From Acinetobacter sp. SFB (GTDB lineage: Bacteria; Pseudomonadota; Gammaproteobacteria; Pseudomonadales; Moraxellaceae), in contig NZ_LSZH01000012.1 in the NCBI RefSeq assembly GCF_001647545.1, forward strand, positions 1-64,000: DNA of 64,000 bases, in the 5' to 3' direction. This document shows, piece after piece, positions 13,065-37,570 of this stretch (position 1 is its first letter; the number at the start of each line of letters is the position of its first letter). The notes beneath the pieces are model-generated. The model made no database searches. It was not told the DNA's origin and worked only from the letters and a program-made list of their open reading frames with translations. A program made the translations under genes and the position numbers.

Positions 13065-13076
13065 AGTACCACCTGG

Positions 13077-19238: not shown

Positions 19239-19304
19239 AAATGAGATAATAAAAAATTTCACAAAGACTGAATCTTAAGCGGAGTAAAGCAGTACTCATA
19301 ATTA

Positions 19305-20610: not shown

Positions 20611-21046
20611 GGAAGCAATGATAAGTTTGAAATTCATCATCTTTTACAAAGCCCATTTGCTCATAGAGTTGATGTGATTGGTAATTGGTTTTTTGCGTCT
20701 CTAAACTAATGCGTAATGCATTTTCATGTCGTGCAAATAAAATAGCGGTATCAATCAGTTGTTTTGCCGAACCCTGACGTCTATAGGTTGGGGTGACATA
20801 CACATCATCCAAAATATAATAGATTGAACAAGCGACTGAAGAAAAACCTAAATAAAGTAAAACAAAACCGGTAAAAACATCATCTTTAACATGAATAAAA
20901 ATCACGCTTTCCTGATTTTCAAAGCGCTGTTTTAAGAATTGATAAGATGCGTTTAAGTTGGAAGAAGCACCATAAAATTGGCGATATTCATCGAATAAAA
21001 CTGCAAGAGGATGTAGGTCTTCTAGCGTTGCACGTCTTACGATCAT
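20603..21046 (-). CDS. GNAT family N-acetyltransferase
   Basis: A 147-residue acetyltransferase. The start is taken at the second ATG (MIVRRATLEDL), which has GGAG six bases upstream. The acetyl-CoA loop is visible as VTPTYRRQGSAKQLIDTAI (Q/RxxGx(A)), preceded by the YILDDVYV strand. LETQKTNYQSHQLYEQMGF is the C-terminal GNAT block. Substrate is unknown. It overlaps rsuA tail to tail. Confidence 0.8.
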   Translation of the reverse strand: MIVRRATLEDLHPLAVLFDEYRQFYGASSNLNASYQFLKQRFENQESVIFIHVKDDVFTGFVLLYLGFSSVACSIYYILDDVYVTPTYRRQGSAKQLIDTAILFARHENALRISLETQKTNYQSHQLYEQMGFVKDDEFQTYHCFLK

Positions 21047-21136
21047 TCTATACTCCATGCTTTTTTTGTCTTTGCATGAAGCATAACTAATTTTTTATAT
21101 TCAGTTTTTTAAAATTTGTTTGTAAATGCGACACTG

Positions 21137-21472
21137 TTAAGTTTTGTCACTTTCACCCAAGATGGCATTCAGCTCTTCAAATAAATCTAAATGGTCATCG
21201 TCCAAAATAAACTCTTCCTCAGCATCAATGGATTGTTCTGCTTCACCATTTAAAAGGGTTTGCTGTTGCTTTAATTTCCGAATCTTATACAGCTGTTCAA
21301 GGTTAATACTCTGATTTTCAATGGAAAAGGGGATGGATTTAGTTAGCACGACTTGTTTGAAAAATAGTCGTACTGCTTGTGCTGGCGTAATCCCCAATTG
21401 TTTAAACACTGCAAAAGCATGTTTTTTCTCTTGGGAGTCAAGTCTTATTTGATAAACTTCGGTTTTTCTCAT
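21137..21472 (-). CDS. RelB/DinJ-like antitoxin without an adjacent toxin
   Basis: The N-terminal 50 residues fit the ribbon-helix-helix RelB/DinJ pattern: a beta strand VYQIRLDSQ, then FKQLGITPAQAVRLFFKQVV, then SIPFSIE. The protein is 111 residues, longer than DinJ, with a Gln-rich linker and a strongly acidic C-terminal tail (DAEEEFILDDDHLDLFEEL). No RelE/YafQ-like gene lies up- or downstream. It may be an orphan antitoxin, or a DNA-binding regulator that has lost or never had a toxin. Confidence 0.65.
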   Translation of the reverse strand: MRKTEVYQIRLDSQEKKHAFAVFKQLGITPAQAVRLFFKQVVLTKSIPFSIENQSINLEQLYKIRKLKQQQTLLNGEAEQSIDAEEEFILDDDHLDLFEELNAILGESDKT

Positions 21473-21587
21473 AATTTTCTGAATACATCTAATTACTTAA
21501 CTTTTCAGCATTTATTTTAATCAAATCTAATGTAATTTCAATATTCATACACTACATTTACGAAAATAAATTGTAATGACACGGTTA

Positions 21588-22526
21588 TTACATGTTCAAT
21601 TCAAAGTTAGATGAAAATTCCATCTCCTGAAAAGTAATGGGATCGTTAAAGCAGATATGTTTTGCTAAAAGCTGAAGAGGTGCGGAAAAGTCATCTTCCC
21701 TTTTATGCTGTACCACCGGATAAAAAGGATCATTTTTTATCGCAATGCCTAAACTGTTCAAATGAACGCGCAATTGATGCTGCTTACCGGTGATCGGTTT
21801 AAGTTCATATTTCCCCCAAACTGAATCATGTTCTATTAAATGAATTTCTGTTTCGCTATTTATTTGCCCTTCAACCACTTGCATCGTATAAAAGGGTTGA
21901 CCTTTTTCCATTCGATAACGGGTATAGCAGGGAAATGTTAAATCTGCATGAAAAGGTGCAATAGCATGGTAGGTTTTTTTAACTTGACGTTGGGCAAACA
22001 TTTCCTGATAGACAGCGCGAGTAGAAGCTTGTTTGGAGAATAAAACCACACCCGCAGTTTCACGATCTAAACGGTGAATAGGGGTTAAGAATTCATTACC
22101 GGTTTGTTTTTTTAAACGCACCAAAAGTGTTTCTTGAACATATTGGCCAGTCGGACTGATGGTTAAGAAATGCGGTTTATCAATGACCAGTAAGTGTTCA
22201 TTTTCAAATAAAATTTCATGTTCAAAAGGCACATTTATTTCGTGTGCTAGAAAACGGTAATAAAACACGTGGCTATTGTCGATATATGCAGAGCTTAAGT
22301 TTAATACTTGACCTAAAGCATCATAAATTAATCCGTCAGCAAAACGTTGTTGCCATTCAGTGGATTTAATATGTGCAAACTGCTGACATAAATATTGATA
22401 GACAGTTGTCGGCGTAGGCTTCATTTTAGGAAGAAATACTTTGCTTGCGCTTACGCCATCAATCATGGGCGGTATGAAATTATCGTTACTCATTGATTTG
22501 TATGTATCTTTAATAATTTCATTCAT
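21588..22526 (-). CDS. RluA family pseudouridine synthase
   Basis: A 312-residue rRNA/tRNA pseudouridine synthase. The catalytic motif IHRLDRETAGVVLFSK contains the essential Asp. VIDKPHFLTISPTG is the upstream RluA signature, and the C-terminal block GKQHQLRVHLNSLGIAI is typical. It lacks an obvious S4 domain at the N-terminus but carries about 90 extra residues there. Translation may begin at residue 12 (MSNDNF). It is the last host gene before the prophage, divergent from the integrase. Confidence 0.82.
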   Translation of the reverse strand: MNEIIKDTYKSMSNDNFIPPMIDGVSASKVFLPKMKPTPTTVYQYLCQQFAHIKSTEWQQRFADGLIYDALGQVLNLSSAYIDNSHVFYYRFLAHEINVPFEHEILFENEHLLVIDKPHFLTISPTGQYVQETLLVRLKKQTGNEFLTPIHRLDRETAGVVLFSKQASTRAVYQEMFAQRQVKKTYHAIAPFHADLTFPCYTRYRMEKGQPFYTMQVVEGQINSETEIHLIEHDSVWGKYELKPITGKQHQLRVHLNSLGIAIKNDPFYPVVQHKREDDFSAPLQLLAKHICFNDPITFQEMEFSSNFELNM

Positions 22527-22594
22527 TTACTTAAAATTCTTTAAACGTGAATAGACAATAATAAACATTAATATTTGCGAATATCTGCATTTTG

Positions 22595-22611
22595 TGCAAC
22601 CTTATTGCAAC
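22595..22611. repeat. Candidate attL core
   Basis: TGCAACCTTATTGCAAC lies between the host pseudouridine synthase and the integrase ATG. Sixteen of its 17 bases recur at 54527-54543 just outside the last phage gene, in direct orientation. That spacing brackets every phage gene. The core is not a tRNA end, so the attB type is unusual and unproven. Confidence 0.5.
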
Positions 22612-22632
22612 TTCAAATCTATGGTTGCAATC

Positions 22633-23781
22633 ATGGGCACAGTCACTAAACGAGTTACAACAAAAGGTGAAGTTCGCTATAGGGCTTTAATTCAAGTGCG
22701 CAAGCAGGATATAGATTTCAGTGAATCAAAAACCTTCAGTAAAAAATCTTTTGCGGAAGCCTGGCTTAAAAAAAGAGAAGCAGAACTTGAAGTAAATCCG
22801 GACATATTATTAGGCAAAGTCAAAGCAAAGTCTATCCGGCTTTCTGAAGCAATTGATCGATATATTGAAGATGTAAACGGAATCGGCACCAGTAAACTTT
22901 ATAAATTACAGTTCATAAAAACATATGATTTTGCGCAAAAAAGATTAGCAGAATTAACACGTGAAGATTATGCCCAGTACACAATAACAAGAAGACGCGG
23001 TGATCCCATCAAAGGTCTTGAACCTATTTCAAAGGCAACTGCAGAACAAGATCTTCAATTTTTGAGAAGTGTATTAAATCATGCCGAACTTGTACTGAAC
23101 GAACCTAATGCCATCAATGAGCTGAATTTAGCAATGCGTGGCCTTAGAAATGCGCGTCAAATTGATAGATCAGAATCTCGTGAACGCCTTCCAACCTCAA
23201 TCGAGCTTCAGACATTAACAAACCATTTTTATTCACTGTGGTTGCGACCAAATGCCACCATGCCGCTGCACTTAATTATGTGGCTTGCTATCTATACATC
23301 TAGAAGACGTGGTGAGCTATTTAGGCTACGTTTGGATGACTATGATGCAGAACATGGGGTTTGGATGGTTCGAGATTTAAAGAGTCCTAAAGGTTCAAAA
23401 GGGAATAACAAACGTTTTAAAGTTAATGAAAAAGCAAAACAAATCATTGAGCAGTTGTTAGATCCGACCGTTAGAAAAAAAATGATGCGCTTAGGAGGTG
23501 ATGAAAGTTTGTTATTACCACTGGATGCTTCATCTACTACACGTATATTCACCAATGCTTGTAAAATTCATGGTATCGATGACTTGTGGTGGCATGATCT
23601 GCGTCATGAAGCTGCTACACGTTTTGCGGAACAAGGTCTTACTATTCCTCAAATTCAGCAATACACTTTGCATGACAGCTGGGGCAGTCTACAAAGATAT
23701 GTAAATTTGGATCTGATCCGAAAGAAAGTATTAGATTATAAAGATGCTATAAAAATAGCTAAAAATGTGGAAAATATTTAA
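22633..23781 (+). CDS. int: Tyrosine recombinase, phage integrase
   Basis: Site-specific recombinase that inserts and excises the phage. Start is taken at ATG 22633 (MGTVTKRVTTKGEVRYRALI), giving 382 residues; a longer GTG frame would run through the att core. An N-terminal AP2/arm-binding-like strand domain and a SAM-like core-binding domain (residues 60-170) precede the catalytic domain. Active-site residues are visible: Arg in TSRRRGELFRLRLDD, HxxR in WHDLRHEAATRF, the second His in LHDSWGSLQRY, and the Tyr nucleophile in that RYV. Confidence 0.92.
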   Translation: MGTVTKRVTTKGEVRYRALIQVRKQDIDFSESKTFSKKSFAEAWLKKREAELEVNPDILLGKVKAKSIRLSEAIDRYIEDVNGIGTSKLYKLQFIKTYDFAQKRLAELTREDYAQYTITRRRGDPIKGLEPISKATAEQDLQFLRSVLNHAELVLNEPNAINELNLAMRGLRNARQIDRSESRERLPTSIELQTLTNHFYSLWLRPNATMPLHLIMWLAIYTSRRRGELFRLRLDDYDAEHGVWMVRDLKSPKGSKGNNKRFKVNEKAKQIIEQLLDPTVRKKMMRLGGDESLLLPLDASSTTRIFTNACKIHGIDDLWWHDLRHEAATRFAEQGLTIPQIQQYTLHDSWGSLQRYVNLDLIRKKVLDYKDAIKIAKNVENI

Positions 23782-23792
23782 GACAAAAATAA

Positions 23793-23810
23793 AGCCTCTA
23801 ATCAGAGGCT
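23793..23810 (-). terminator. Terminator at the end of the leftward phage operon
   Basis: Stem AGCCTCT/AGAGGCT with a four-base loop. The minus strand continues with TTTATTTTT, so it mainly ends the leftward operon. It also lies just behind the integrase stop and may act on both. Confidence 0.7.
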
Positions 23811-23882
23811 TGTGATGATTTTTTTGTATTTTCCAACTAATAAAGATTCCAGAAGATCTTTTACTTGTTCAAGATTGATCAT
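23802..23882 (-). CDS. Possible 26-aa peptide gene after the methyltransferase
   Basis: ATG overlaps the TGA of the methyltransferase gene (ATGA) and opens a 26-residue frame beginning MINLEQVKDLLESLLVGKYK, ending inside the terminator stem. The coupling and amphipathic helix look gene-like, but the size makes chance likely. Confidence 0.35.
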   Translation of the reverse strand: MINLEQVKDLLESLLVGKYKKIITSL

Positions 23883-25324
23883 GCTGCCCCTCGATATTTA
23901 TTTTCATGTTTAAAGTTTGCCTCTACCAATGCACGAGCCAATTGTGGACAAACAGAATTACCCACCATTCGCGTTTGCTCAGTCTTGGTTAGATTTATTT
24001 TTTGACCGTGCTCATTCGTGCCGTGACTAAAAATGTATGTTTCTGGAAAACCTTGCGCCTTAAATAGCTCAACCGGTTGCAACATGCGGAAGCCAATATC
24101 TGCAATTTGATAGTCTTGCTGTCCAATAGTTACCAAACCAAAACGGTCACGAGTTGGTATGGTTCTTAAAGGCTCATCCACAGAATTTCCATCTTTTTCA
24201 TTCCCATAAAATGCGGTAAGGAATGCGCGAACTTCTGCGAATTGATTGACGGTCGTAAGCGTATGCATAGGCTCATCAAGATCCTGACCAATACAGCCAT
24301 TTTTCATTTTTGATAAGTGACTGACCACAAGTGAGTTGTGATCTTTGGCGGTAATGGTATGAACAGGTTCAGCTAAATCACTACCAGTCACACCTGTATA
24401 ATTTTTAGCAAGGAAAGCTGAAATAAGTGCGTGATGACCACCTTTTGTTTGGGCGCAAATAGTTCTTAAAGGCTCATCTATTGGCATTGAGCGTTTATTG
24501 GATGCATTAGCACATTCGGTTAATACTGGAGCAACGCTATTTACAACAAATGGCTTTTTATTATTAAAAACGAATTTCTTTAAACCTCCTGCAATACGCT
24601 CCATAGTTGCGGTAGCTAGTGGTCGCTTGCGTGTAAATATACTTGGGCAATCAAGCGACCAATCAATGCATTCAGCTGCAGTACGCCATGGTTTTAATTT
24701 TCCTTTTTTTACCTGGATAGAATCAGGATGGCCATGCGTTTGTTCTGGCCATTGAATTTTTAAACCATCTCGACGAGCAACCAAAAAGAAACGCTTACGT
24801 ATTGTTGGTGATCCATAGTCACATGCACGTAATTCACGATAATCAACTATGTAACCTTGGTTTTTTAGTGCATTAACAAAGCTTTTAAATGTACGTCCTT
24901 TTTGCTTAGGACATGGCTTGCCTTCACTATCTAAACCACCCCAAGTTTTAAACTCTTCTACATTCTCTAGCATAATGACTCGAGGACGTGCTTTAGCTGC
25001 CCAGCGCAATGCTACCCATGCAAGACCACGAATTTTCTTTTCTACAGGCTTGCTTCCTTTTGCCTTGGAAAAGTGTTTGCAGTCTGGTGAAAGCCAAACA
25101 AGACCGACTGGTTGATTTCCTGTGACTTCAATTGGATCAATATCCCAAACACTTTCACAATAATGTTTAGTTTCTGGATGATTGATACGGTGCATTGCTA
25201 AAGCTTTGGCATCATGATTTATGGCTACATCAACAGGGCGATTGAATGCTTGCTCAAGTCCAGTTGATGTACCGCCACCGCCAGCAAAGTTGTCGATGAT
25301 TAATTCATGCGGTAATAAATCCAT
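23879..25324 (-). CDS. C5 cytosine DNA methyltransferase, phage orphan
   Basis: A cytosine-5 DNA methyltransferase of 481 residues from ATG 25324. Motif I is IIDNFAGGGGTSTGLEQAF. The catalytic loop has SPDCKHFSKAKGSKP in place of the usual PCQ. Motif VI is VIMLENVEEF, and motif VIII is ELRACDYGSPTIRKRFF. RMVGNSVCPQLARALV is motif X. The middle target-recognition region repeats the LDEPMHTLTT / VDEPLRTIPT pattern several times. No nuclease partner is nearby, so it likely protects phage DNA from host restriction. It is coupled to the upstream gene by overlapping codons. Confidence 0.88.
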   Translation of the reverse strand: MDLLPHELIIDNFAGGGGTSTGLEQAFNRPVDVAINHDAKALAMHRINHPETKHYCESVWDIDPIEVTGNQPVGLVWLSPDCKHFSKAKGSKPVEKKIRGLAWVALRWAAKARPRVIMLENVEEFKTWGGLDSEGKPCPKQKGRTFKSFVNALKNQGYIVDYRELRACDYGSPTIRKRFFLVARRDGLKIQWPEQTHGHPDSIQVKKGKLKPWRTAAECIDWSLDCPSIFTRKRPLATATMERIAGGLKKFVFNNKKPFVVNSVAPVLTECANASNKRSMPIDEPLRTICAQTKGGHHALISAFLAKNYTGVTGSDLAEPVHTITAKDHNSLVVSHLSKMKNGCIGQDLDEPMHTLTTVNQFAEVRAFLTAFYGNEKDGNSVDEPLRTIPTRDRFGLVTIGQQDYQIADIGFRMLQPVELFKAQGFPETYIFSHGTNEHGQKINLTKTEQTRMVGNSVCPQLARALVEANFKHENKYRGAA

Positions 25325-27237: not shown

Positions 27238-27290
27238 AACTAACTTTGGTTAGATTTATTGTCAATATATTTAACTAATAAAAGTTAGTT
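27238..27290 (-). promoter_or_regulatory. Leftward early promoter with two repressor operators
   Basis: On the minus strand TTGACA (27265-27260) is a perfect -35, with TAGTTT 17 bases later as the -10 position. One operator-like 18-mer, AACTAACTTTGGTTAGAT (27238-27255, plus-strand reading), lies between and over the -10. A second, AACTAATAAAAGTTAGTT (27273-27290), lies upstream of the -35. Both match the perfect palindrome found at 28076. Confidence 0.7.
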
Positions 27291-27355: not shown

Positions 27356-28009
27356 TTATAAGAATTTTTTACTAGGTGTAAATTTGCCTACGTATTTTCC
27401 CTTATATTCTGAATTTTCTTTTAAAGGAATGATATTAGGCTGATAATTTTCATTTAATGCCTTTAAGTAAGTAGTATTAAACTCTCTCACCAGTGCTTTA
27501 AATGTAGCCTCGTCGTCTTGACATACGACTATCATTTCGCCTGTTTGTACAGAATTAAAGTCAACATCTGGATCAATACAAATAAAATCACCATCATTAA
27601 AATAAGGTGAATTACTAATACCTTGAGCAATTAAATAAAAACTATTTTTACCTGCTTCAGGTGGTGAGGGTAGCCATTGCTCAATATCATGAGCGGAGAT
27701 TGATCGCACATTTGTCATTGTGCCGCATTGGACATGAGTCAAAACCGGTAGCATCCTCGTTACTGGTCTAAAATCCTTTATATTTTCTAAAGATTCTTCT
27801 TTTCCATACATTATAAAGTCAATAGTCGTATCAAGTGTAGGTGCAAGAATATTTAGATATTCCAATTTAGGAGTATTTACATCTTTTTCCCAGTGTACAA
27901 CTGCGGCATCAGATATGCCTAAAGTTTTTGCAATATCTTTTTGAGTAAGCTTTTTATCTTTTCTTAATTTACGGATTCTTGATCCGATTGTACTGATTGT
28001 GGATTCCAT
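27356..28009 (-). CDS. cI: CI-like phage repressor (XRE HTH plus S24 peptidase)
   Basis: A 217-residue repressor that keeps the prophage silent. The N-terminal XRE helix-turn-helix is LTQKDIAKTLGISDAAVVHW (21-40). The C-terminal S24/LexA-like domain shows a Cys95-Gly96 cleavage bond in HVQCGT, the serine of ISNSPYFNDGD (Ser132) where LexA has GDSM, and Lys171 in ATFKALV. RecA-stimulated self-cleavage is therefore expected. It lies between operator pairs and is transcribed leftward from a promoter (TTAACT, 18 bases, TATAAG) whose -10 overlaps an operator, pointing to autoregulation. Confidence 0.88.
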   Translation of the reverse strand: MESTISTIGSRIRKLRKDKKLTQKDIAKTLGISDAAVVHWEKDVNTPKLEYLNILAPTLDTTIDFIMYGKEESLENIKDFRPVTRMLPVLTHVQCGTMTNVRSISAHDIEQWLPSPPEAGKNSFYLIAQGISNSPYFNDGDFICIDPDVDFNSVQTGEMIVVCQDDEATFKALVREFNTTYLKALNENYQPNIIPLKENSEYKGKYVGKFTPSKKFL

Positions 28010-28026: not shown

Positions 28027-28093
28027 AACTAACTTATATTAGTTGTTGACTAACTAAGTTAAATTGTATTTAATTAACTAACTTAAGTTAGTT
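28027..28093. promoter_or_regulatory. Rightward early promoter, repressor promoter and operators
   Basis: AACTAACTTAAGTTAGTT at 28076-28093 is a perfect 18-bp palindrome ending two bases before the cro-like ATG at 28096. AACTAACTTATATTAGTT (28027-28044) differs from it at two positions, and a looser copy lies at 28048-28064. The rightward promoter is TTGACT (28046) with TTTAAT (28069) at 17-base spacing. The repressor's own promoter reads leftward through the first site. Confidence 0.8.
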
Positions 28094-28107
28094 TTATGGA
28101 AAATATA

Positions 28108-28323
28108 ATGACTAGAGATGAAGCCATTACTTTGCTTGGTTGTTCTTTATCTGAGCTTGCAGACAAGCTCGAAATTACAACAGCAGCAGTCGCCCGTTGG
28201 AATCCAAACCAAATTCCACTACTTCGGGAAGCACAAGTTCGTGCTTTGGCAGAGGGAAAGCCGGCAATTGGTTTGATTCCGCAGTCAAATGTAAGTCGTC
28301 AAGTTGCTGAAAGTAATATCTAA
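28108..28323 (+). CDS. Cro-like DNA-binding protein
   Basis: First gene right of the operators. It has about 71 residues from ATG 28108, or 75 if the ATG at 28096, directly against the operator, is used. It has a Cro/YdaS-like helix-turn-helix (DEAITLLGCSLSELADKLEI and the following TTAAVARWN). By position it should oppose the CI-like repressor and promote lytic growth; this is standard for lambdoid phages but inferred here. Confidence 0.72.
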   Translation: MTRDEAITLLGCSLSELADKLEITTAAVARWNPNQIPLLREAQVRALAEGKPAIGLIPQSNVSRQVAESNI

Positions 28324-28341
28324 ATTAGGAGTAAATTGGAT

Positions 28342-28851
28342 ATGAACGTTTTTTTATCAAATTATGCTGCTGAAAATGCTGTACTACCTTTGGATGTTTC
28401 AATCTACCGCGCCTGTAAAGACTTACATGGAAGCAAAGCTGCTATTGCTGAAATAAATGGGTTTAATCCAATGGTATTTAGTAAGTGTGTTGACATCAAC
28501 AATACCCAATATCACTTGCATCCAGAGCATATCGAAGCAGTTCTTCATTACACAAAAGATAAGCGGATTTTAGAAAGCCTTGCTTCAGCTCATGGCCAAG
28601 TTGTCTTTTTTGAATATAAAAATGATGTAGATATTAAAAATTTTGATTTTCTTTCTAAGGTTGGAAAGGTGTCAAAAAAAGTTGGTGAATTATTCGATGG
28701 TCTTAGTGAATCGTTGAGTGACGGAAAAATATCAAGTATAGAAATGGCAATGCTAGAAAAGCATGCAATGGAATTAATTGGGGCTGTGGCTGCATTAAAG
28801 AAAATTGCAAAAATCAAATCTGAAAAAGATCTTCAAGTAGAGGGGGAGTGA
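28342..28851 (+). CDS. CII family phage regulatory protein
   Basis: About 169 residues, of the P2-type Phage_CII family: SIYRACKDLHGSKAAIAEIN and NGFNPMVFSKCVDINN form an HTH-like region, followed by YHLHPEHIEAVLHYTKDKRI and a helical C-terminus. AGGAG lies upstream. Either TTG 28336 or ATG 28342 can be the start. It probably governs early transcription or establishment of lysogeny. It precedes the primase gene by three bases. Confidence 0.7.
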   Translation: MNVFLSNYAAENAVLPLDVSIYRACKDLHGSKAAIAEINGFNPMVFSKCVDINNTQYHLHPEHIEAVLHYTKDKRILESLASAHGQVVFFEYKNDVDIKNFDFLSKVGKVSKKVGELFDGLSESLSDGKISSIEMAMLEKHAMELIGAVAALKKIAKIKSEKDLQVEGE

Positions 28852-28854: not shown

Positions 28855-29757
28855 ATGGCTTTAACTTTTGATCAAGTTCGGGATTCTGCTTTAGGAAAAT
28901 GGAAAGACCTTATTTTCCCTGCATTCGGAATTAATGTTCCAGCCAAGAAAAATCAACATGGACCATGTCCAATTTGTGGTGGGACTGATCGATTCCGTTG
29001 CGATGATAAGCAAGGTAAAGGCACTTGGATCTGCAACCAATGTAATTCAGGTGATGGTTTCGCACTAATTGAAAAATCAAGAAATATGGATTATTCAACG
29101 GTTTTGAAGGAAGTAGGGGCTGTATTAGGCTTATCAAATGAAACCAAAGTTACGGATGAAGATCGTAAAAAATGGCGTGAAAAAGCGGCACAGCAGCAAC
29201 GCCAGGCTGAATTTGAAGAGCGTAAAGCACAGGAAAGTGCAGCAAAACGTGCGGAACGTATGTGGAAAGGCAAGTCTGTAGAACGTGATTGTCCATATTT
29301 GGATCGAAAGCATGTAAAAAACCACGGCTGTAAAATTAATGGCAAAGGTAACTTGCTTGTGCCACTTTTTGATATTGATGGTCATATTTGGAATATGCAG
29401 GAAATTCATGTAGATGGTTATAAGCCATATTTGACGGGCGCACGTGTCAATGATTGCTTTTACATTATTGGTGAGATTACTTCAGCAGATCAAATTGTCT
29501 GTATCGCAGAAGGTTATGCGACTGGTGCGAGTGTTTATGAAGCAACTGGCTATACAACAATCGTTGCCTTTCAATCTGGAAATATTGACAAGGTCGGTAT
29601 TGCAGTTCGTTCCAAATATCCAAAATTACAACTTGTTTACTGTGCTGATGATGATAGTGCAACTTTAGATGCAGGTATAAAAGCTGCGAATAAAGCTGTG
29701 GCTGCTACAGGCGGGATTATTGTATTACCCGATTTTAAAACAGTGGAGCACGTATGA
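28855..29757 (+). CDS. Phage primase (zinc-finger plus Toprim)
   Basis: A 300-residue replicative primase. The zinc finger is CPICGGTDRFRCDDKQGKGT followed by WICNQC (residues 42-64 region). A Lys/Gln/Ala-rich helical linker follows, then the Toprim domain with IVCIAEGYATGAS (Glu), and the QLVYCADDDSA acidic pair. It is like the alpha-type primases of phages and plasmids that make RNA primers for replication. It overlaps the helicase gene by ATGA. Confidence 0.85.
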   Translation: MALTFDQVRDSALGKWKDLIFPAFGINVPAKKNQHGPCPICGGTDRFRCDDKQGKGTWICNQCNSGDGFALIEKSRNMDYSTVLKEVGAVLGLSNETKVTDEDRKKWREKAAQQQRQAEFEERKAQESAAKRAERMWKGKSVERDCPYLDRKHVKNHGCKINGKGNLLVPLFDIDGHIWNMQEIHVDGYKPYLTGARVNDCFYIIGEITSADQIVCIAEGYATGASVYEATGYTTIVAFQSGNIDKVGIAVRSKYPKLQLVYCADDDSATLDAGIKAANKAVAATGGIIVLPDFKTVEHV

Positions 29758-31571
29758 GTATTGAAGAAAATAACGAGCAGCCACAAGTCATATCTAAGCC
29801 ACCATCTGATTTTAATGATCTTCATGTATTAGCGGGTTTAAGTGAAGTTCGTCGGCAGATCGAAACGGCAATCTCAACATCTAATTTTGCTTTTGTTTTT
29901 TCCCCGCACCCCTTTGATTTAGCTGACCAGAATTTAGGGAAAATGGCAGAAAATCATGCAAATATCGGCTATTCCGATAGTGGTTTTCAGCTAGATTATG
30001 CACCGCCCATGAATGGCCATTCTGAAACTGGTCAGCAGCAAATAGCGGGGAGTGGGGAAAATCAAAATATTCCTGAACCAAATGATCCTATGGAAAAAAT
30101 AAATGATGCATTAAAACGTTATGCGGTGATTGCTTGTAGTAATGATGCATTTGATTTAAAAACCAAACATAAGTTTAAAATTTCATCGCTAAAGCATACT
30201 TTGGGTAGTGTTTATAAGCACTGGTATAATCATCATTTTCGTCAAACTATTGAAAAAGAGGAAGTTGAACAATTACTTATAGATGGTGCGGGGTTTGTTG
30301 CACCGAATATGAGTAAAAATTGTATTTTGTTAAAAGGTGAAACATTTTTATATGATAAATCTTTGAATCGAGTCGTGTCTTGGTCTGCTTCTCAATTGAT
30401 GTATCCACATGAATATAAAAAATGGATTGAAAGTCCGACCCGTAGCGAAATTGATTATGAAAAACTCATTTTTGATCCAACTCGAAAGATTGATATAGAT
30501 CCAAACTATATCAATACATTTGAAGGTTATGCTGTTAATGAGCTATTGAATCAAGATCAGCAGAGGCTTGAATATTCACTGGTAAGGTCACGTTGTGCAG
30601 GCATTTTAAAAATGATCTGGTGCTTGTGTAACGGTGATCTAGATATTCAACGTTGGTTGCTTCAATGGTTAGCGTACCCATTACAAAATGAAGGTCAAAA
30701 GGCACATAGTGCGGTACTTATGGCGAGTCATATTCAAGGCTCGGGTAAAACCACATTGTTTGAAAAAGTCATGGGCGGTATTTATGGTAAATATCATCGC
30801 GTTATTACTTCACAAGAATTAGAAAGTCCACAATTTAACGGTTGGTTAAATAATGCTGCCTTTATTTTTGGTGAAGAAATCGCAACGAATGCCACAAAAT
30901 ATAATGTTACGCCCTATCTAAATGCCTTAATTACAGCCAAAAGCGTAACAATCAATGAGAAGCAACGTCCTCAAAAACAAGTGCCTGCATATTTCAATAT
31001 GGCATTTGCTTCAAATGAAAATATTCCATTTCCATTACATGGCGAGGCACGTCGGTGGTTCGTCATTGCACCGCAATCCAAACTGGATGAAAGATTAAGT
31101 GAGCAAGTATATTCAGAAATAGCGGGAGATGGATTGGATGCGTTTTACACTTATTTATTAACTGTTCCCTTAGAGGAATTTAAACATGACAAGCCACCAG
31201 TGACTGATGCAAAACGAGCGTTAATGAATGCAAGTAAGCGATCTATCGAGGTTTTTATTGATGAATGGCTCATTGGTGAAACTAAATATAAGTGTATTAG
31301 TTGTAAGGCGCAGCAGCTTTATGATGCTTATAAAGAGTGGGCATCTTCAACTTTGGAGCATAAGTATTCTTATCGAAAATTTACGGAGGACTTAAAGAAA
31401 ATTGAGGGTGTGACGTTAATTGAGAAGCAAAAATGGCGATATATCAAAGAACAGGGCCAGTCTTTGATTGTAAGCATTGGTGACTGTCCAGATGGCAAAA
31501 CTGCTATTGAGTGGTATGGCGAATGTGTGAATGAGTTTGATAGAGGTGCACCTAATGTTCTTGACAAATAA
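29754..31571 (+). CDS. Phage DUF5906-type superfamily 3 primase-helicase
   Basis: A 605-residue replication protein. The C-terminal ATPase shows Walker A SHIQGSGKTTLFEKVMGG and the B-type AAFIFGEEIA, with FNMAFASNENIPFPL as sensor region, the layout of NrS-1-like/DUF5906 helicases. The N-terminal 200 residues are variable. It should unwind the phage DNA next to the primase made from the preceding gene. The repeat cluster right behind it may be its origin. Confidence 0.85.
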   Translation: MSIEENNEQPQVISKPPSDFNDLHVLAGLSEVRRQIETAISTSNFAFVFSPHPFDLADQNLGKMAENHANIGYSDSGFQLDYAPPMNGHSETGQQQIAGSGENQNIPEPNDPMEKINDALKRYAVIACSNDAFDLKTKHKFKISSLKHTLGSVYKHWYNHHFRQTIEKEEVEQLLIDGAGFVAPNMSKNCILLKGETFLYDKSLNRVVSWSASQLMYPHEYKKWIESPTRSEIDYEKLIFDPTRKIDIDPNYINTFEGYAVNELLNQDQQRLEYSLVRSRCAGILKMIWCLCNGDLDIQRWLLQWLAYPLQNEGQKAHSAVLMASHIQGSGKTTLFEKVMGGIYGKYHRVITSQELESPQFNGWLNNAAFIFGEEIATNATKYNVTPYLNALITAKSVTINEKQRPQKQVPAYFNMAFASNENIPFPLHGEARRWFVIAPQSKLDERLSEQVYSEIAGDGLDAFYTYLLTVPLEEFKHDKPPVTDAKRALMNASKRSIEVFIDEWLIGETKYKCISCKAQQLYDAYKEWASSTLEHKYSYRKFTEDLKKIEGVTLIEKQKWRYIKEQGQSLIVSIGDCPDGKTAIEWYGECVNEFDRGAPNVLDK

Positions 31572-31624
31572 ACTGAATATATCTAAGATTTATTTCGCAA
31601 AAGCAATGGCTTACATTGCATTAC

Positions 31625-31931
31625 AGGTGAATGAAAGGAATAACAAAAACGCTCGTTCACCTGTTCGTTCACCTAGTAAATCTATGAATCGTAATGATTT
31701 AATAGTGATAGGTGAACGAGAGAACCAAATTTCTCGCGCACATGTGGGAAATTATTTTGCATCTCATCTTCTTGTTCTTCTGTTTATATCATTCTATTAT
31801 TTATTTTTTATCTTACGCGCGCATATTTTTTTATTCACTCGTTCACTTTTAATAAATAAAATATTAAAAACAAATACTTATGAGGTGAATGACTTAAAAG
31901 ACTCATTCACTAGTCGTTCACCTGTTCACTT
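31625..31931. repeat. Iteron-like repeat cluster, candidate replication origin
   Basis: The 10-mer TCGTTCACCT occurs at 31653, 31665 and 31914, and inverted (AGGTGAACGA) at 31710. Near copies are at 31625 and 31883 (AGGTGAATGA), 31839 (TCGTTCACTT), 31903 (TCATTCACTA), with a half copy at 31924. The stretch between is extremely AT-rich. Such dense short repeats in both orientations beside an AT-rich block and directly behind the helicase gene fit a phage origin. No annotated gene is convincing here. Confidence 0.6.
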
Positions 31932-31953
31932 TTATAATTAAAAGGGCTGACCA

Positions 31954-32421
31954 ATGGAAAAATATATTCGTTTATTAAATCCAAAATCCGTAAATTATGA
32001 AGCAGATCGGGTTGATGGTGGTTCTCCATCCTTGACAGCGCAAGATGTATTACTTGCTATGAGTTACGCTAAATTATCTCCAGTCCAGGATAATTTAATT
32101 CGTTTGAAATGTTTTGGCGCTAATTCATCAAATAATATTTTAAAGATGAGTACAGCACTCTTACCAAAGTATCGAGAAAGATTAGATCGTGTTAATCCAG
32201 ATTATCATTTTACTGTTGTTAAAATAGCTATTCTTGAATTCTGTGCCGTGCCTGGGGATTACAAACCTTCTGTACGTGGACGTGGTGTATTAGGTGGCGT
32301 GAGTTATCTAGTCATCCATCGTCACTTAGATAATCACATAAATCATGTATTAGAAAATTTAAATCAGGAATTAGAATTAGCTTTTGAAAAGATATTTTTT
32401 CAGCTGAATAAGACTAATTAA
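31954..32421 (+). CDS. Phage hypothetical protein, candidate late regulator
   Basis: A 155-residue protein with no recognised domain; SPSLTAQDVLLAMSYAKLSP and the helical C-terminus are faintly like lambdoid antitermination proteins, but the likeness is weak. It is the last gene of the early rightward region. It is followed at ten bases by a strong promoter with a repressor operator and then a leader terminator, the same layout as lambda Q-pR'-tR'. Position is the main argument for calling it a late regulator. Confidence 0.45.
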   Translation: MEKYIRLLNPKSVNYEADRVDGGSPSLTAQDVLLAMSYAKLSPVQDNLIRLKCFGANSSNNILKMSTALLPKYRERLDRVNPDYHFTVVKIAILEFCAVPGDYKPSVRGRGVLGGVSYLVIHRHLDNHINHVLENLNQELELAFEKIFFQLNKTN

Positions 32422-32430
32422 AATTAGTAT

Positions 32431-32459
32431 TTGACACTGAAACAAATTTAAGTTAGTTT
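32431..32459 (+). promoter_or_regulatory. Late promoter candidate with a repressor-type operator
   Basis: A perfect -35 TTGACA (32431) stands 17 bases before TAGTTT, exactly as in the leftward early promoter. The 18-mer AACAAATTTAAGTTAGTT (32441-32458) matches the palindromic operator at 16 of 18 positions and sits at the same offset from the -35 as in the leftward promoter. Confidence 0.6.
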
Positions 32460-32460
32460 T

Positions 32461-32566
32461 TACCACAATGGAAAACTATATCAAAGCGCTGTAGTTTCCC
32501 TTAGAACCGAAAGGTTCTCTTTCATAACCGCATGTTTACCTCAGAGGTACATGCGGTTTTTTTTAT
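32461..32566 (+). ncRNA. Short leader RNA ended by a strong terminator
   Basis: Downstream of the promoter at 32431 lies a hairpin AGAACC-GAAA-GGTTCT with a GNRA tetraloop (32503-32518). A long stem follows, AACCGCATGT/ACATGCGGTT with an inner ACC/GGT pair (32526-32558), then eight T. Any transcript would stop after about 100 bases unless antiterminated. This resembles the lambda 6S leader and tR'. Existence of the RNA is inferred. Confidence 0.55.
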
Positions 32567-32576
32567 GGGGATATCT

Positions 32577-32744
32577 ATGCAACCGATTGTCAAAATTCAA
32601 GTGAAATTATCTAAACGTAAGATTGCATTGATTTATGCAGCGATCTTGATTGAGAAAGCAGCTCGAGCAGTTGCTAATAAAATTATTAAACGTTCGATTG
32701 AGGTGTCTCCAGTTGAAAGCAAAGAAAGCACCGCAACGAGCTAA
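32577..32744 (+). CDS. Phage hypothetical small basic protein, 55 aa
   Basis: Starts at ATG 32577 behind GGGG. The peptide MQPIVKIQVKLSKRKIALIY is followed by a helical, basic segment with a weakly hydrophobic centre. It overlaps the HNH gene by 32 bases. No family recognised. Confidence 0.45.
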   Translation: MQPIVKIQVKLSKRKIALIYAAILIEKAARAVANKIIKRSIEVSPVESKESTATS

Positions 32745-33303
32745 ACGTCCATGCCTGGTGAGCAGCTGCAAAGAGTACTCAACCAATCAAGGTTATTGCG
32801 ATAAACATCAAGATAAAATTAGAAAGAAAGATCGTGATCGTGGTACTTCACATCAACGTGGATACGATGCACGTTGGAACAAGGCACGTATTGAACACTT
32901 GGATGCAGATCCGTTGTGTGTTGATTGTTCTAAACGAGATTACATAACGCCTGCAACTGTTGTCGATCACATCGTTCCACACAAGGGCAATGAAGAGTTG
33001 TTCTGGGATCAAAGTAATTGGCAATCATTATGCAAGCCATGTCATGACCGTAAGACAGCAAGTGAAGACATGGGCAGTTGGTCTCCAGTAGTTAGTACTT
33101 CAAGCAAAGCAAACCGTGATAGTAAGAATCCATTTGAATTGCATGATCGTGTCCTGGTTGCCACTGAATATGCTGAAGACTGTTTGATGTGTGATGACAA
33201 GGCAGTGTTCACAGTAATTGAAACTCATCTGAATACATTGTTTGTTCAAGACAAAGATGGCAATGGTGGCCGACTGCATCACTCACACTTCAAGCGAGCG
33301 TGA
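32713..33303 (+). CDS. HNH endonuclease of the packaging module
   Basis: An HNH nuclease located just upstream of the terminase genes, as in HK97-type cos phages where it is needed for DNA cleavage during packaging. The N-terminal zinc site is CLVSSCKEYSTNQGYCDKH. The HNH core is CVDCSKR, then VVDHIVPHKG, and NWQSLCKPCHDRKT. TTG 32713 preceded by GAGGTG is the best start (about 196 residues). The longer ATG frame from 32650 lies within the previous gene. An extra 50-residue C-terminal domain is present. Confidence 0.85.
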   Translation: MKAKKAPQRAKRPCLVSSCKEYSTNQGYCDKHQDKIRKKDRDRGTSHQRGYDARWNKARIEHLDADPLCVDCSKRDYITPATVVDHIVPHKGNEELFWDQSNWQSLCKPCHDRKTASEDMGSWSPVVSTSSKANRDSKNPFELHDRVLVATEYAEDCLMCDDKAVFTVIETHLNTLFVQDKDGNGGRLHHSHFKRA

Positions 33304-33305
33304 AT

Positions 33306-33521
33306 ATGGAACAAGAAATAATTCTACTTGGTGATCCGGTTGTCTATCGTGATGACTTGAAAGGTTTCGATTGTGTTGGTGTTGTCACCAAGTCTACTGG
33401 CTCAACACTTCAAGTACTTTGGAATGATGAACAACATCCACGTACTGAACAATATGATCGGCTTCGAGTTGCTTCACTGGATGAAGTTGATGCTCAGTGT
33501 CGATTGATACGAAAGGATTGA
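33306..33521 (+). CDS. Phage hypothetical protein, 71 aa
   Basis: A short acidic protein coupled to the HNH gene. LGDPVVYRDDLKGFDCVGVV and STLQVLWNDE suggest a small SH3-like barrel, similar to the last part of the HNH protein (ELHDRVLVATEYAEDCLMCD), so the two may be related by duplication. No function assigned. Confidence 0.5.
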   Translation: MEQEIILLGDPVVYRDDLKGFDCVGVVTKSTGSTLQVLWNDEQHPRTEQYDRLRVASLDEVDAQCRLIRKD

Positions 33522-33525
33522 GTGC

Positions 33526-33813
33526 ATGTGTAAATCGATTGGTTCTGGAAAGGATGATTACTACAGAAATATTGGTAAAAGTATTAAACATTCAGCGGAA
33601 AATGCTAAAAAGTGTTCAATGAATCATGAGCTTCATTGTTGTCATCGTCCTATTCCACCTGAAGTTGACCGGCCACCAATAATTATTGCTGGGCCAGATA
33701 TAACGATGTCTGGATCATTCATTGAAGCTACTAGACCTAGCTGCTATCTAGTTTGGTTCTTTGGTTTTTGTTTTGGAATTGCTGTTAGAGATATATTTTC
33801 AAATTTTATCTGA
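33526..33813 (+). CDS. Phage hypothetical protein with C-terminal membrane segment
   Basis: A 95-residue protein. A polar N-terminus with a Cys/His cluster (KKCSMNHELHCCHRPIPPEV) leads to one hydrophobic helix (YLVWFFGFCFGIAV). It is placed between HNH and the terminase small subunit. No family recognised. Confidence 0.45.
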   Translation: MCKSIGSGKDDYYRNIGKSIKHSAENAKKCSMNHELHCCHRPIPPEVDRPPIIIAGPDITMSGSFIEATRPSCYLVWFFGFCFGIAVRDIFSNFI

Positions 33814-33951
33814 GTTAGGGGATAGGGGGTCAAAAGTTAAAAAGACTCTCTCAGAAAAGACCGCCCCCCCGTCAAATTTGTGCGTGGTCATAATTCCATA
33901 GGGGGGTATACCTCTAATATTTAAATAGTTTTAGATTTTTTGGAGGTTTTT
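33814..33951. promoter_or_regulatory. Candidate cos region upstream of terS
   Basis: A gene-free stretch with opposed runs: GGGGG near 33825, a run of about eight C near 33862, and GGGGGG at 33901, then TATACC. Such GC runs are conspicuous in this AT-rich phage. HNH plus a P27-type small terminase flank it, a setting where cos sites lie in HK97-like phages. GGAGG of the terS ribosome site is at the end. Confidence 0.45.
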
Positions 33952-34470
33952 ATGTCAAATGCTGGAAGACCTCCCAAGTCATTGCAAGAAAAAGTCATGA
34001 GCGGTTCAAGAATTCGAAGTGATCGTGATGAAGATGCTCAAGTAGCAAATGCTGCAGTAGATTTGGGATTACCCCCATGCCCAACATGGCTAAACGCAAA
34101 GGCAAAAAAACATTGGGATATGTTGGGGCCAAAGTTAGTACAGGCTGGATTACTTGCTGTTGTGGATGGTGATGTTTTTGGACTTCATTGCGACAACATG
34201 GCTGTTTATGAAACCGTGATGGAAAAATTAGTAGATATTGATAAATGGGTTTCAAAAACTCCGAATGGTTTTGAGGTGCAAGCAGCTTGGCTTCAGATCC
34301 GCAACAAAGTTCAAGAACAAATTATCAGAACTGCACGTGAGTTTGGTTTAACACCAGCTGCTCGTTCAAGCGTCAAAGTGAATAAACAACAGCAATTAGA
34401 TTTATTAGGTGCTGAAGCATCTACCACCAGTAATAACGATCCATATCAAAATTATGGGTTAAGGAATTAG
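33952..34470 (+). CDS. terS: Terminase small subunit (P27 family)
   Basis: A 172-residue DNA-recognition subunit of the packaging motor. Start ATG 33952 (MSNAGRPPKS) has GGAGG six bases upstream. It shows the P27 family features: a basic N-terminal GRPPK patch, PCPTWLNAKAKKHWDMLGP, and TAREFGLTPAARSSVKV near the C-terminus. It precedes terL by one shared base. Confidence 0.9.
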   Translation: MSNAGRPPKSLQEKVMSGSRIRSDRDEDAQVANAAVDLGLPPCPTWLNAKAKKHWDMLGPKLVQAGLLAVVDGDVFGLHCDNMAVYETVMEKLVDIDKWVSKTPNGFEVQAAWLQIRNKVQEQIIRTAREFGLTPAARSSVKVNKQQQLDLLGAEASTTSNNDPYQNYGLRN

Positions 34471-36320
34471 TGATTTTTATGCGCGATTATTTTCAAATTG
34501 CGCTTCAGTATTGTGACGATGTACGAACTGGAGTGCGTACAGCCGGAAAACTGGAAAAACTTGCAGTAAAAAGATTCTTAAATGATTTAACCCGTTCAGG
34601 TTGTTCAACGATTTCTGATAATCCAGAAGTTGAATCTTTGTTGGTCAAACTAAAAGTAAGTACTAAGCCTGCAGATATTGGATTTGATTATGATTTTGAT
34701 GAAGATCGTGCAAGACATGCATGTTTTTTTGTCGAAACATGCCCTCACGTTTCTGGTGACTTAGCAAAATTAAAACCAGATGGCACACGTAATTTAATGA
34801 TTATGGAACCATGGCAGGTTTTCGCAACAGTCAATATTTTTGGTTGGATAGACTCAGATGGTTTGAGACGATTTTTATATTTCTATATTGAGGTCGCTAA
34901 AAAAAATGGAAAGTCTACATGGATTGCAGCATTGGGCCTTTATATGGCCTTTATCGATGGTGAAATGGGGGCGGAAGTATATTCCGCTGCAACTTCTAAA
35001 GAACAAGCAAATATCATTTTCCGCACTGCAAATAAAATGGTTGAGCTATCACCTTTCATGCAGCAGCGTTTTGGAATTGAAGCATCTAAATATTCAATTT
35101 TTCAGCCAACATCAGGTTCATTTTTTAAATCGTTATCACAAGATCGGGGCGGGACAAAAGACGGTCTGAATGTACACATGGCCGTTATTGATGAATTACA
35201 TGCGCACAAAGATTCGAGCATGTATGACATTACTGCGGATGGTATTGCTGCCAGATCTCAACCATTAGTTGGTGCGATTAGTACAGCGGGTGATGACAAT
35301 TTAGGCGTGTGTTATCGGGAAAGAACTACTGTGGAAAATGTACTGTTAGGTAAAGCAGTACATGAGCAATACTTCGGCATGATTTTCTGTTTAGACCGTG
35401 GCGATGATTGGAAAGATGCCAAAAATTGGCCTAAAGCCAATCCGAACTACGGTGTATCAGTCACAGTTAAATACTTACAGGCCAAATTTGAAAAAGTCAT
35501 TATCTCACCTTCTCAAGAAGCTTTTTATCGTCAAAAACACTTGAATGAGTGGGTTGGTGCAGTGAATGGTTGGATTTCCCCATCATCATGGGAGAAATGC
35601 TATAGAGCCGTTAAAGAAGAAGACTTTAAAGGTCTACCAAATTTTGGCGGTTATGACTTGGCAAGTCGTTTGGACTTAGCAAGTTGGGTTTCATTACGGC
35701 CTCGCCTTGAAGAAGATGAGAAAATTCACTGGCATGCATTTGCTCATTCATACATTAATGAAAATGTAATTAAGACCAAACAAGCAATTAATGGCGAAAA
35801 ACGTCCTGATGAATATCCTGTTTGGAGAGATCAAGGATGGTTAATTGAAACCCCTGGTGAATCTACAGACTACAAACGTATTCAGCGTGATATTGAAAAT
35901 GCACATATTGAAAGTCCTTTTTATGAAATAGGCCACGACCGATATCATGCCGAGCAAGTTACAGCCAATCTTTTAGAAGAGGGCTTGAGTGTCATAGAAA
36001 TACCTCAAACGACAGAATATTTGAGTCCAGCTATGAGGTGGATTGAAGTATTGATTGCTGAAGGAAGATTTCATCATTCTGGCGATCCAGTTTTAACTTG
36101 GTGTATGACGAATATCGTTGTGAAGCCAGATGCAAAGGAAAATATTTTCCCTCGTAAAATTTCCCCTGGTAAAAAAATTGATGCAGGAATTGGAACAATT
36201 ACTGCTGCAGCACGTGCTCGTCATTTCGATGATGAAAGTGTTTTTGATTTAATCCCTGGAGATGATTCGGGAAGTGTTGATGACTGGTTGAAAGACATGA
36301 TCAAGGTGAAAAAGCGATGA
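34470..36320 (+). CDS. terL: Terminase large subunit
   Basis: ATPase and nuclease of DNA packaging, 616 residues. The Walker A variant is VAKKNGKSTWIAA, and Walker B is MAVIDELHAH. The C-terminal nuclease region contains GGYDLASRLDLAS and an acidic HDRYHAEQV block. GTG 34470 or ATG 34479 can be the start. It overlaps the portal gene by four bases. The type is Terminase_1/HK97-like. Confidence 0.92.
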   Translation: MIFMRDYFQIALQYCDDVRTGVRTAGKLEKLAVKRFLNDLTRSGCSTISDNPEVESLLVKLKVSTKPADIGFDYDFDEDRARHACFFVETCPHVSGDLAKLKPDGTRNLMIMEPWQVFATVNIFGWIDSDGLRRFLYFYIEVAKKNGKSTWIAALGLYMAFIDGEMGAEVYSAATSKEQANIIFRTANKMVELSPFMQQRFGIEASKYSIFQPTSGSFFKSLSQDRGGTKDGLNVHMAVIDELHAHKDSSMYDITADGIAARSQPLVGAISTAGDDNLGVCYRERTTVENVLLGKAVHEQYFGMIFCLDRGDDWKDAKNWPKANPNYGVSVTVKYLQAKFEKVIISPSQEAFYRQKHLNEWVGAVNGWISPSSWEKCYRAVKEEDFKGLPNFGGYDLASRLDLASWVSLRPRLEEDEKIHWHAFAHSYINENVIKTKQAINGEKRPDEYPVWRDQGWLIETPGESTDYKRIQRDIENAHIESPFYEIGHDRYHAEQVTANLLEEGLSVIEIPQTTEYLSPAMRWIEVLIAEGRFHHSGDPVLTWCMTNIVVKPDAKENIFPRKISPGKKIDAGIGTITAAARARHFDDESVFDLIPGDDSGSVDDWLKDMIKVKKR

Positions 36321-37570
36321 GTAAAAAGCGCGATACGGTAAAAATTCGTGATAAAACCAATCGCGATAAGCTGAAGGTTCGTGGAACTGGACCAACGCAA
36401 GATAAAACGGGAACGACCATTATTGATCGTCCCCGTTCTAGTTTTAAAACTGCTAAACCTGTCTCTTTTGACAGTGCTATGACATTAAGTGCGGTTTTTG
36501 CTTGTGTCAAAATCTTGACAGAGTCTGTTGCTACTCTTCCATTGCAAATGTTCCAGTTGAAGTCTGATGGAACACGTGCTCAGGTCAAAGATCATGATGT
36601 AATTCGCCTGTTATACAACAAACCTAATCGTTATCAAACACGAGTAGAGTTCTTTGAACAACTCATGTTGAATCTGGTTGCAGGAAATGCATATGTTAAG
36701 AAAGATTTTATAGGAAAAAAGCTGGTCAGTTTACAGGTGATCAACTCAGGTTCAGTAGATCCTAGTATCCGTGAAGATGGTGCACCGTTGTATAAGTGCA
36801 AAATTGGTAATAAAACAGTTGAATATACAGATGAAGAAATCTGGCATATCAAGCTTTTTGGCACCGGTTTTGTAGGAATGTCTCCTATTGCTTATGGAGC
36901 GCAATCAATCGGTATTGGTTTGGCTGGGAGTGATAAGACTTCACGTTTGATGTCAAATGGTGCAAAGCCTACAGGAGCTATTTTGACACCAAAATGGCTT
37001 AAGAAAGATCAGCGTGACGAAATCCGGTCTGAAATGGACATGCTCGTTAATGGTGATGATGGTGATATGCCAGTTCTTGAAGGAAATATGAAGTTTGAGC
37101 AAATCAGCCTGACTCCAGAAGATCTTGAACTTATCGAAATTCGAAAGTTAGCCGTTGAAGAAGCTTGCCGTTATTTTGGTGTGAATCCAATTTTAATTTT
37201 TAGTACAGATTCAAGTACGACATGGGGTAGCGGCATTGAACAGCTTGTCGATGGTTTTCATAAATTTGGATTAAGGCCTTATTTGGAGCGTATTGAAGAG
37301 AGTGCTCGTATTCACCTGCTGCAGCGACATGAATGGGATGAATATGAGTTCGAATTTAAAACTAAAGATTTGTTGAGAGCTTCATATCTTGAAAGGATTA
37401 AATCCAACAAAGATCGGATTTTAAGTGGTCAAGCAACTATGAATGAAATTCGGGTTGAAGAGGGTGATACCCCAATTACAAATGCAGACTTTTTATTAGC
37501 CCCGGTAAATATGACAACAGCCGACCGTATGAAAAAAGGTAATTATGGAGTGAAAGCTGATGAAAAATAA
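36317..37570 (+). CDS. HK97-type portal protein
   Basis: A 417-residue portal forming the dodecameric DNA gate of the head. MTLSAVFACVKILTESVATL at residues 55-75 is the HK97 portal N-terminal signature. LVAGNAYVKKDF and the Gly-rich central loop are followed by VEEACRYFGVNPILIFSTDS. The order TerL-portal-protease-capsid is canonical. It overlaps the protease gene by 11 bases. Confidence 0.92.
   Translation: MSKKRDTVKIRDKTNRDKLKVRGTGPTQDKTGTTIIDRPRSSFKTAKPVSFDSAMTLSAVFACVKILTESVATLPLQMFQLKSDGTRAQVKDHDVIRLLYNKPNRYQTRVEFFEQLMLNLVAGNAYVKKDFIGKKLVSLQVINSGSVDPSIREDGAPLYKCKIGNKTVEYTDEEIWHIKLFGTGFVGMSPIAYGAQSIGIGLAGSDKTSRLMSNGAKPTGAILTPKWLKKDQRDEIRSEMDMLVNGDDGDMPVLEGNMKFEQISLTPEDLELIEIRKLAVEEACRYFGVNPILIFSTDSSTTWGSGIEQLVDGFHKFGLRPYLERIEESARIHLLQRHEWDEYEFEFKTKDLLRASYLERIKSNKDRILSGQATMNEIRVEEGDTPITNADFLLAPVNMTTADRMKKGNYGVKADEK

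Follow-up and report, generated by a model that had tools for sequence, protein, structure and literature searches.

Predicted repressor operators at an antiterminator-type late promoter in a lambda-like Acinetobacter prophage and its relatives

The late region of a lambda-like Acinetobacter prophage is very probably held under two serial locks, one being the prophage repressor acting on predicted operators at the late promoter itself and the other a leader terminator that a Q-type antiterminator would override; this reading rests mainly on comparisons of related sequences, together with a modelled protein fold. In the lambda model, the late genes are under Q antitermination at a promoter without repressor sites. 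The prophage lies in the window, the whole 64,000-nucleotide stretch of DNA analysed here, and comprises genes for a repressor, Cro-like, CII-like, primase and helicase-like proteins, followed by late genes (Table 1). The repressor also matches PHROG 4, 'transcriptional repressor' (E 3e-39).

Table 1. Coordinates in the window of the prophage genes and of the observed and predicted control elements of the early and late promoters
Feature	Coordinates	Strand	Basis or remark
pL predicted operators 27238-27255 and 27273-27290, around TTGACA 27265-27260	27238-27290	-	Each 3 mismatches from AACTAACTTAAGTTAGTT
Repressor, HTH and S24 peptidase domain (C2/CI type)	27356-28009	-	Pfam Peptidase_S24 7e-14, HTH_3 8e-11
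pR region: predicted operators 28027-28044 and 28076-28093; TTGACT 28046-28051, TTTAAT 28069-28074	28027-28093	+	2 and 0 mismatches
Cro-like	28096-28323		
CII-like	28336-28851		
Primase	28855-29757		
Helicase-like DUF5906 protein	29754-31571		
Q-like antiterminator (predicted), 155 aa	31954-32421	+	Fold match; adjoins late promoter in relatives too
Upstream predicted repressor operator GACTAATTAAAATTAGTA	32412-32429	+	pL/pR motif; same offset as upstream pR operator
Late promoter TTGACA-N17-TAGTTT; TTGACA 32431-32436, TAGTTT 32454-32459	32431-32459	+	Sequence
Inner predicted repressor operator AACAAATTTAAGTTAGTT, over spacer and -10	32441-32458	+	2 mismatches from pR site
CCACAATG, -10-like element in first transcribed bases	32464-32471	+	A, A, T at anchor positions 1, 3, 5
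Tetraloop hairpin AGAACC-GAAA-GGTTCT	32503-32518	+	6 pairs conserved, covariation
Intrinsic terminator (tR'-like), stem 32526-32558, T run to 32564	32526-32564	+	RNA fold; 11 pairs, 7 T
First late ORF, 55 aa	32577-32744	+	Same frame as ORF listed at 32532-32744
Late genes: HNH, terminase small and large subunits, portal	32650-37570	+	Domain/PHROG matches

The hexamers and spacer that the sequence-only reading had placed at 32431 are there as described, with a transcription start expected near 32466. The claim that spacing and operator offset repeat those of the leftward early promoter also holds: on the minus strand, pL has the same hexamers (TTGACA 27265-27260, TAGTTT 27242-27237) separated by N17, and its inner operator (27255-27238) begins 10 nt after the start of the -35, as at the late promoter. 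A single operator matching 16 of 18 positions had been proposed; that site stands, differing from the pR site AACTAACTTAAGTTAGTT at 2 of 18 positions, but a second one had been overlooked. This upstream site is a palindrome that shares bases with the stop codon of the 31954 gene. It begins 19 nt before the late -35 does, the same offset at which the upstream pR operator (28027-28044) precedes TTGACT at 28046. The -10 is poor (3/6), which is why a generic promoter scan omits the late promoter; the scan finds no plus-strand promoter between 32424 and 36000, and this result is to be read with the fact that it misses the late promoter and the bulged terminator as well.

A palindromic operator motif was trained on pL and pR alone and scored along positions 20000-45000 of the window. 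Each of the two late-promoter sites outscores all of the approximately 24,260 other positions, and with a pooled class motif the inner site is likewise unequalled (rank 0 of 24,403 positions). The late-promoter sites share the motif of the pL and pR sites, the property by which operators of the resident repressor are recognized here. In the 3.31-Mb genome, four places lie within two mismatches of AACTAACTTAAGTTAGTT, namely two in pR, the inner late-promoter site and one on another contig (C14:223517-223534). Allowing three mismatches gives 10 places, five of them in the prophage, against 15 for a reversed control pattern, so that the three-mismatch count alone is meaningless. When the six annotated operators of lambda are used in the same way, the best score at pR' is 4.7 bits and is equalled by 31 of 11,695 other positions in this one phage; pR' thus fails the operator test, in agreement with the earlier remark that lambda lacks repressor control of its late promoter.

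Searches with the Q-like protein and its alignment yielded 86 loci (74 from IMG/VR, 11 from genomes and the window), some of them copies of one phage, which hold 48 distinct late promoters. The order Q gene, promoter, -10-like element, terminator and late genes is found in the window and in 47 of the 48 distinct relatives, the remaining contig (L106) ending inside the Q gene; this count of 47 is partly a matter of construction, since the script that located the promoters looked close to the Q stop codon for the sequence best matching TTGACA plus CACAATG (scores 10-13 of 13). A -35 of the form TTGAC(A/T/G) is kept in all 47 distinct relatives covering the region. A nucleotide similarity search of isolated phages returned four records, all matching the HNH gene stretch only. 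A distant member (E 7e-9) occurs in another genus of the family (genome G192, loci L116 and L122), where a TTGACA promoter, a CATAATC leader start, a hairpin with T run and an HNH gene lie downstream of the Q-like gene on a contig that ends before the repressor.

By best match, the repressors of these phages fall into type 1, which is that of the window and has operator subclasses A, B and C, and types 2, 3 and 4, type 4 standing at 37-38% to the type-3 query. Judged by eye, types 2-4 look like diverged members of one family and type 1 like a separate one. The pL/pR operators of type 1 are AACTAACTTAAGTTAGTT (1A), AATTAAGTTAACTTAATT (1B) and ATCTAAGTTAACTTAGAT (1C); those of the other types, assigned partly by eye, are AATACC..GGTATT or AAAAAGGTATT (type 2), ATCAAC..GTTGAT or ATCACC..GGTGAT (type 3) and AACCT..AGGT (type 4). 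Matching motifs occur at the late promoters, for example TAAAAAGGTATTTTTAGTATTGACA in the type-2 phage L012 and AATCAACTTAAAGTTTATTT before the -35 in the type-3 phage L033.

The operator test covered 42 of the 48 promoters and left out L052, L086, L088 and L099, where no repressor was found, L106, whose contig ends inside the Q gene, and L049, whose repressor lies at a contig edge; the entries L001-L012 had been superseded by longer stretches of the same contigs. With class motifs built from pL and pR only, the best late site is unequalled in 33 of the 42 loci, among 8,574-24,403 other positions each. Rank 0 is reached in 25 of 26 type-1, 5 of 6 type-2 and 3 of 6 type-3 loci (the others ranking 10, 4 and 1), and in 0 of 4 type-4 loci, where L065-L068 rank only 27, 6, 3 and 2; the script-derived type-4 motif is GC-rich and may be off register. 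Other motif widths and site numbers give rank 0 in 26, 32, 37 and 28 of the 42, type 3 being the most setting-dependent (1/6 to 6/6 at rank 0; ranks 0 to 84 with motif width). After thinning to less than 90% repressor identity (27 of 42 loci), rank 0 is kept in 23 of 27, and the motif of a locus's own type is best, ties counted, in 26 of 27, with 0 of 20,000 label shuffles as good. Within type 1, the 1A motif outscores the own subclass in 3 of 17 loci (L014, L046 and L032) and ranks 0 in 26 of 26, so that the tracking of subclasses is partial. Direct repressor control of the late promoter, which the sequence-only reading had proposed, is thus supported by a predicted operator that tracks the cognate repressor in relatives.

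The leader begins with CACAATG or a near variant, of which anchor positions 1, 3 and 5 (A, A and T) do not vary in any of the 47 distinct leaders. This -10-like element is a candidate sigma-dependent pause signal: counted on the sequence, it lies 33 nt from the start of the -35, and its lambda pR' counterpart CAACGATG lies at 34. The available text of PMC9371919 describes sigma-dependent pausing and AlpA loading as using a -10-like element at such a position. The tetraloop hairpin keeps its six pairs in 13 of 13 aligned leaders, which were hand-picked from the 47 and are in some cases nearly identical, and three of the pairs have changes on both sides; in some relatives, such as L029 and L034, the hairpin is a full terminator. 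In RNA folding, the leader has a z value of -5.67 and its 3' part (32500-32566) one of -6.28, with 0 of 200 shuffles as stable in each case. Of the 47 leaders, 33 have one terminator-like hairpin with T run, 10 have two and 3 have three (46 in all), L104 alone having none, and the terminators vary in sequence and number. The first late ORF starts 12 nt past the T run and an in-frame ATG at 32565 is closer still, a gap so short that no other promoter fits there.

The 155-residue product of the gene at 31954 is probably a Q-type antiterminator, as its modelled fold suggests. Its sequence belongs to no family in Pfam, NCBIfam or PHROGs (E up to 0.01), finds no relative in the PDB by sequence profile (best E 1.4) and is not matched by tblastn in any of 50,697 deposited phage records. 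PHROG 127, 'anti-termination protein Q-like', matches 9 of 32 relatives weakly (best E 0.039) and the window protein over residues 2-39 (E 0.073); hhalign aligns the same N-terminal stretch with lambda Q at E 0.015 but with a probability of 3%. A family of unknown function, PHROG 11372, is matched by 6 of the 32 relatives, at best with E 0.0013. An AlphaFold2 model built from 32 sequences (mean pLDDT 82.7; residues 16-23 under 50) shows the strongest similarity with lambda Q in loading complexes (Z 9.6 over 145 residues, rmsd 4.3; a second lambda Q, Z 9.5) and with AlpA (Z 8.3 and 8.1), the next of 941 aligned chains having a Z of 5.4. For helical models, Z values below about 13 in this tool can reflect a common arrangement, and the match is trusted because of the gap (8.1 versus 5.4) that lies below the four antiterminator entries. 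The top three Foldseek matches are also AlpA and lambda Q entries, at insignificant E values of 0.09-0.29, and among viral structures the second Foldseek match is named 'Antitermination protein Q' (E 0.007). The Q-pR'-tR' geometry and the 100-base leader with tetraloop hairpin and strong terminator, both part of the sequence-only reading, therefore appear well founded: the predicted fold is Q/AlpA-like, the -10-like element has the lambda spacing, the hairpin covaries, the leader folds strongly and the terminator precedes the first late ORF.

A search for PHROG 127 in 19 relatives gave four matches to its middle part, in ORFs of 375-379 residues, and gave hits in 11 of 14 control genomes as well; these were set aside as DnaJ-like zinc motifs. 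The Q-like proteins look mosaic, the first ~25 residues being common to L047 and L105 and to L065 and L093 while the C-terminal halves differ. Relatives are carried by 74 IMG/VR contigs as against none of the 50,697 phage records, and the phage group of this protein seems to be without an isolated representative in that phage collection.

The operator-like sequences might instead be a Q-binding element whose likeness to repressor operators is incidental, given that the QBE of lambda and the AlpA binding element (ABE) lie between -35 and -10 (for the ABE, the accessible part of PMC7969949). The inner site occupies the same place, and the left half of this site keeps an A(A/G/C)CA(A/G)A-like sequence throughout the repressor subclasses; the position of the ABE is the reason for reading this half as possibly shared with a Q-binding element. 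As an account of the sites as a whole, this explanation is quite unlikely. Partial Mantel tests, run on 42 loci with 999 permutations and without correction for phylogeny, represented the repressor by its N-terminal part. The 42 nt before the -35, where the upstream site lies, go with the repressor when Q is controlled for (r 0.67, p 0.001) and hardly with Q when the repressor is controlled for (r 0.11, p 0.03), and the -10 side behaves alike (r 0.56, p 0.001 versus r 0.07, p 0.10). For the initial transcribed element the relation is reversed, with r 0.33 (p 0.001) against Q given the repressor and r 0.00 (p 0.50) against the repressor given Q. Moreover, the upstream site falls outside the spacer, and phages L065-L068 have the Q closest to the window's query (48%), yet a type-4 repressor and no type-1 operator. 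These sequence comparisons suggest that, over four repressor types, the late-promoter site varies in step with the repressor and not with Q, whereas the early transcribed element follows Q; on the Mantel results, operator likeness as a by-product of Q descent was rejected. That an AT-rich promoter resembles an operator by mere chance is hardly credible. Genome matches within three mismatches do not exceed the reversed control (10 versus 15), but the two sites, which are independent, both come first in the locus, and relatives repeat the match with different motifs (33 of 42 loci; 0 of 20,000 shuffles). An artefact of AT-rich promoters was rejected likewise, the ranking using positions of the same locus and lambda failing the test.

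The repressor of lambda loops between oL and oR, and the predicted late operators of the prophage lie ~4-5 kb from pL and pR. The late sites could on this model be bound mainly as looping or auxiliary operators that aid repression of pL and pR, with late shut-off secondary, but we consider this unlikely: one site runs into the -10 and its partner lies directly against the -35, the arrangement of pL and pR, so that polymerase would be blocked, and the best site also adjoins the -35 in the type 2-4 phages examined. The 100-nt transcript, being compact, strongly folded and terminated, and carrying a covarying hairpin, has the looks of a repressor-controlled small RNA or of a simple attenuated leader that does without Q-type antitermination. 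Such an interpretation is very improbable in view of the gene of Q-like predicted fold directly upstream, the late ORFs 12 nt past the T run and the location of the most constant bases at the transcript start, at the spacing of the lambda pause element, while the terminators vary in sequence and number.

Under the preferred reading of two serial locks, the repressor would bind 32412-32429 and 32441-32458 in the lysogen and, just as at pL and pR, deny RNA polymerase access to the late promoter, until DNA damage led to cleavage of the S24-type repressor and freed the promoter. Polymerase would then start near 32466, pause at the -10-like CACAAT element and halt at the terminator (32526-32564) unless loaded with the 31954 Q-like protein; the Q-modified polymerase would continue into the HNH, terminase and head genes.

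The layout shares with lambda Q-pR'-tR' an upstream Q gene, a TTGAC-N17 promoter, a -10-like element at nearly equal distance, a terminator and late genes. However, lambda pR' is without a CI operator, whereas the prophage late promoter has predicted operators, and the region is therefore better described as pR' plus a repressor lock than as a plain lambda pR'. Phages 186 and P1 resemble the prophage in that the lysogeny repressor acts directly on the late-control step, CI of phage 186 doing so at pB; in both, the repressed promoter is that of the late activator gene and not an antiterminator-dependent late promoter. C1 of P1 binds operators in the genome and represses nearby promoters, according to the available text of PMC8198154. 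The telomere phages phiKO2 and N15, which have the CB repressor, likewise combine several repressor operators with a putative antiterminator q; the sections of PMC4997575 at hand place three of five CB sites between cB and cro and two upstream of repA, and mention none at the late promoter. The 31954 protein has two cysteines only and no room for the zinc finger said, in the portion of PMC9371919 that covers it, to be inserted in lambda Q.

In the alp locus of Pseudomonas aeruginosa, as presented in excerpts of PMC7969949 and PMC9371919, AlpR is cleaved on DNA damage, AlpA is an antiterminator, and a sigma-dependent pause and the terminator tB lie downstream of the alpB promoter. The predicted control of the prophage would share with it an antiterminator of the same predicted fold, a repressor cleaved on DNA damage, a binding element between -35 and -10, a sigma-dependent pause and a downstream terminator. 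AlpR is said to bind the AlpA-dependent alpB promoter (PMC7969949, citing a 2015 paper). The alp locus is a host cell-death locus, whereas phage late genes are concerned here, and those excerpts describe no retention through exchanged repressors, in contrast to the retention across repressor types observed in these phages. A repressor at an antiterminator-dependent promoter thus has a precedent, to judge from the same excerpts, at a host locus, so that what we regard as new is the application to phage late promoters and, chiefly, the persistence of the arrangement when repressors are exchanged. The portions available of PMC9371919, PMC9998450, PMC12796719, PMC11150451, PMC4997575, PMC8198154 and PMC7326022 contain no repressor on an antiterminator-dependent phage late promoter, and in the mainly open-access, partly accessible literature covered, in which primed promoter names are unsearchable, no Q-dependent late promoter of a phage was found described as carrying a repressor operator.

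Retention of the predicted repressor lock through at least four repressor types points to selection for the double lock. A tentative and rather doubtful proposal is that the lock serves as an insulation device, each phage keeping its own operator on the late promoter and changing it along with any exchange of repressor: phages with different repressors have leaders and Q-loading signals in common, so that the late genes of a resident prophage would otherwise be open to trans-activation by a foreign Q. Two of these Q genes were never found in one genome, each of the 13 genomes with a match, out of 348 of the family, having a single one; the chief sources of foreign Q would therefore be infecting phages or other Q families, which counts against insulation. 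The double lock makes the question of why an already terminated promoter should be repressed a testable one, for which the 42 phages with matched repressors and sites form a ready comparative system. The analysis also brings to light what is probably a Q family of Acinetobacter prophages, hitherto unannotated.

Some further features of the sequence deserve mention. The place on contig C14 (223517-223534) is the sole one outside the prophage that lies within two mismatches of the repressor operator. In the window, repeats TCGTTCACCTGTTC, AGGTGAATGA and TTCACYYGTTCACTTTTA (31625-31934) separate the helicase gene from the Q-like gene, and relatives have different repeated units in the equivalent place, for example GTTACGGG in L024 and GTGAATGAT in L019; as a guess, the primase-helicase may use these repeats as the iterons of its replication origin. 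Where the helicase gene ends, ~365 nt ahead of the Q-like gene, TTGACA-N17-TAAGAT (31561-31589) matches a promoter at 10 of 12 positions and is possibly a separate promoter for Q.
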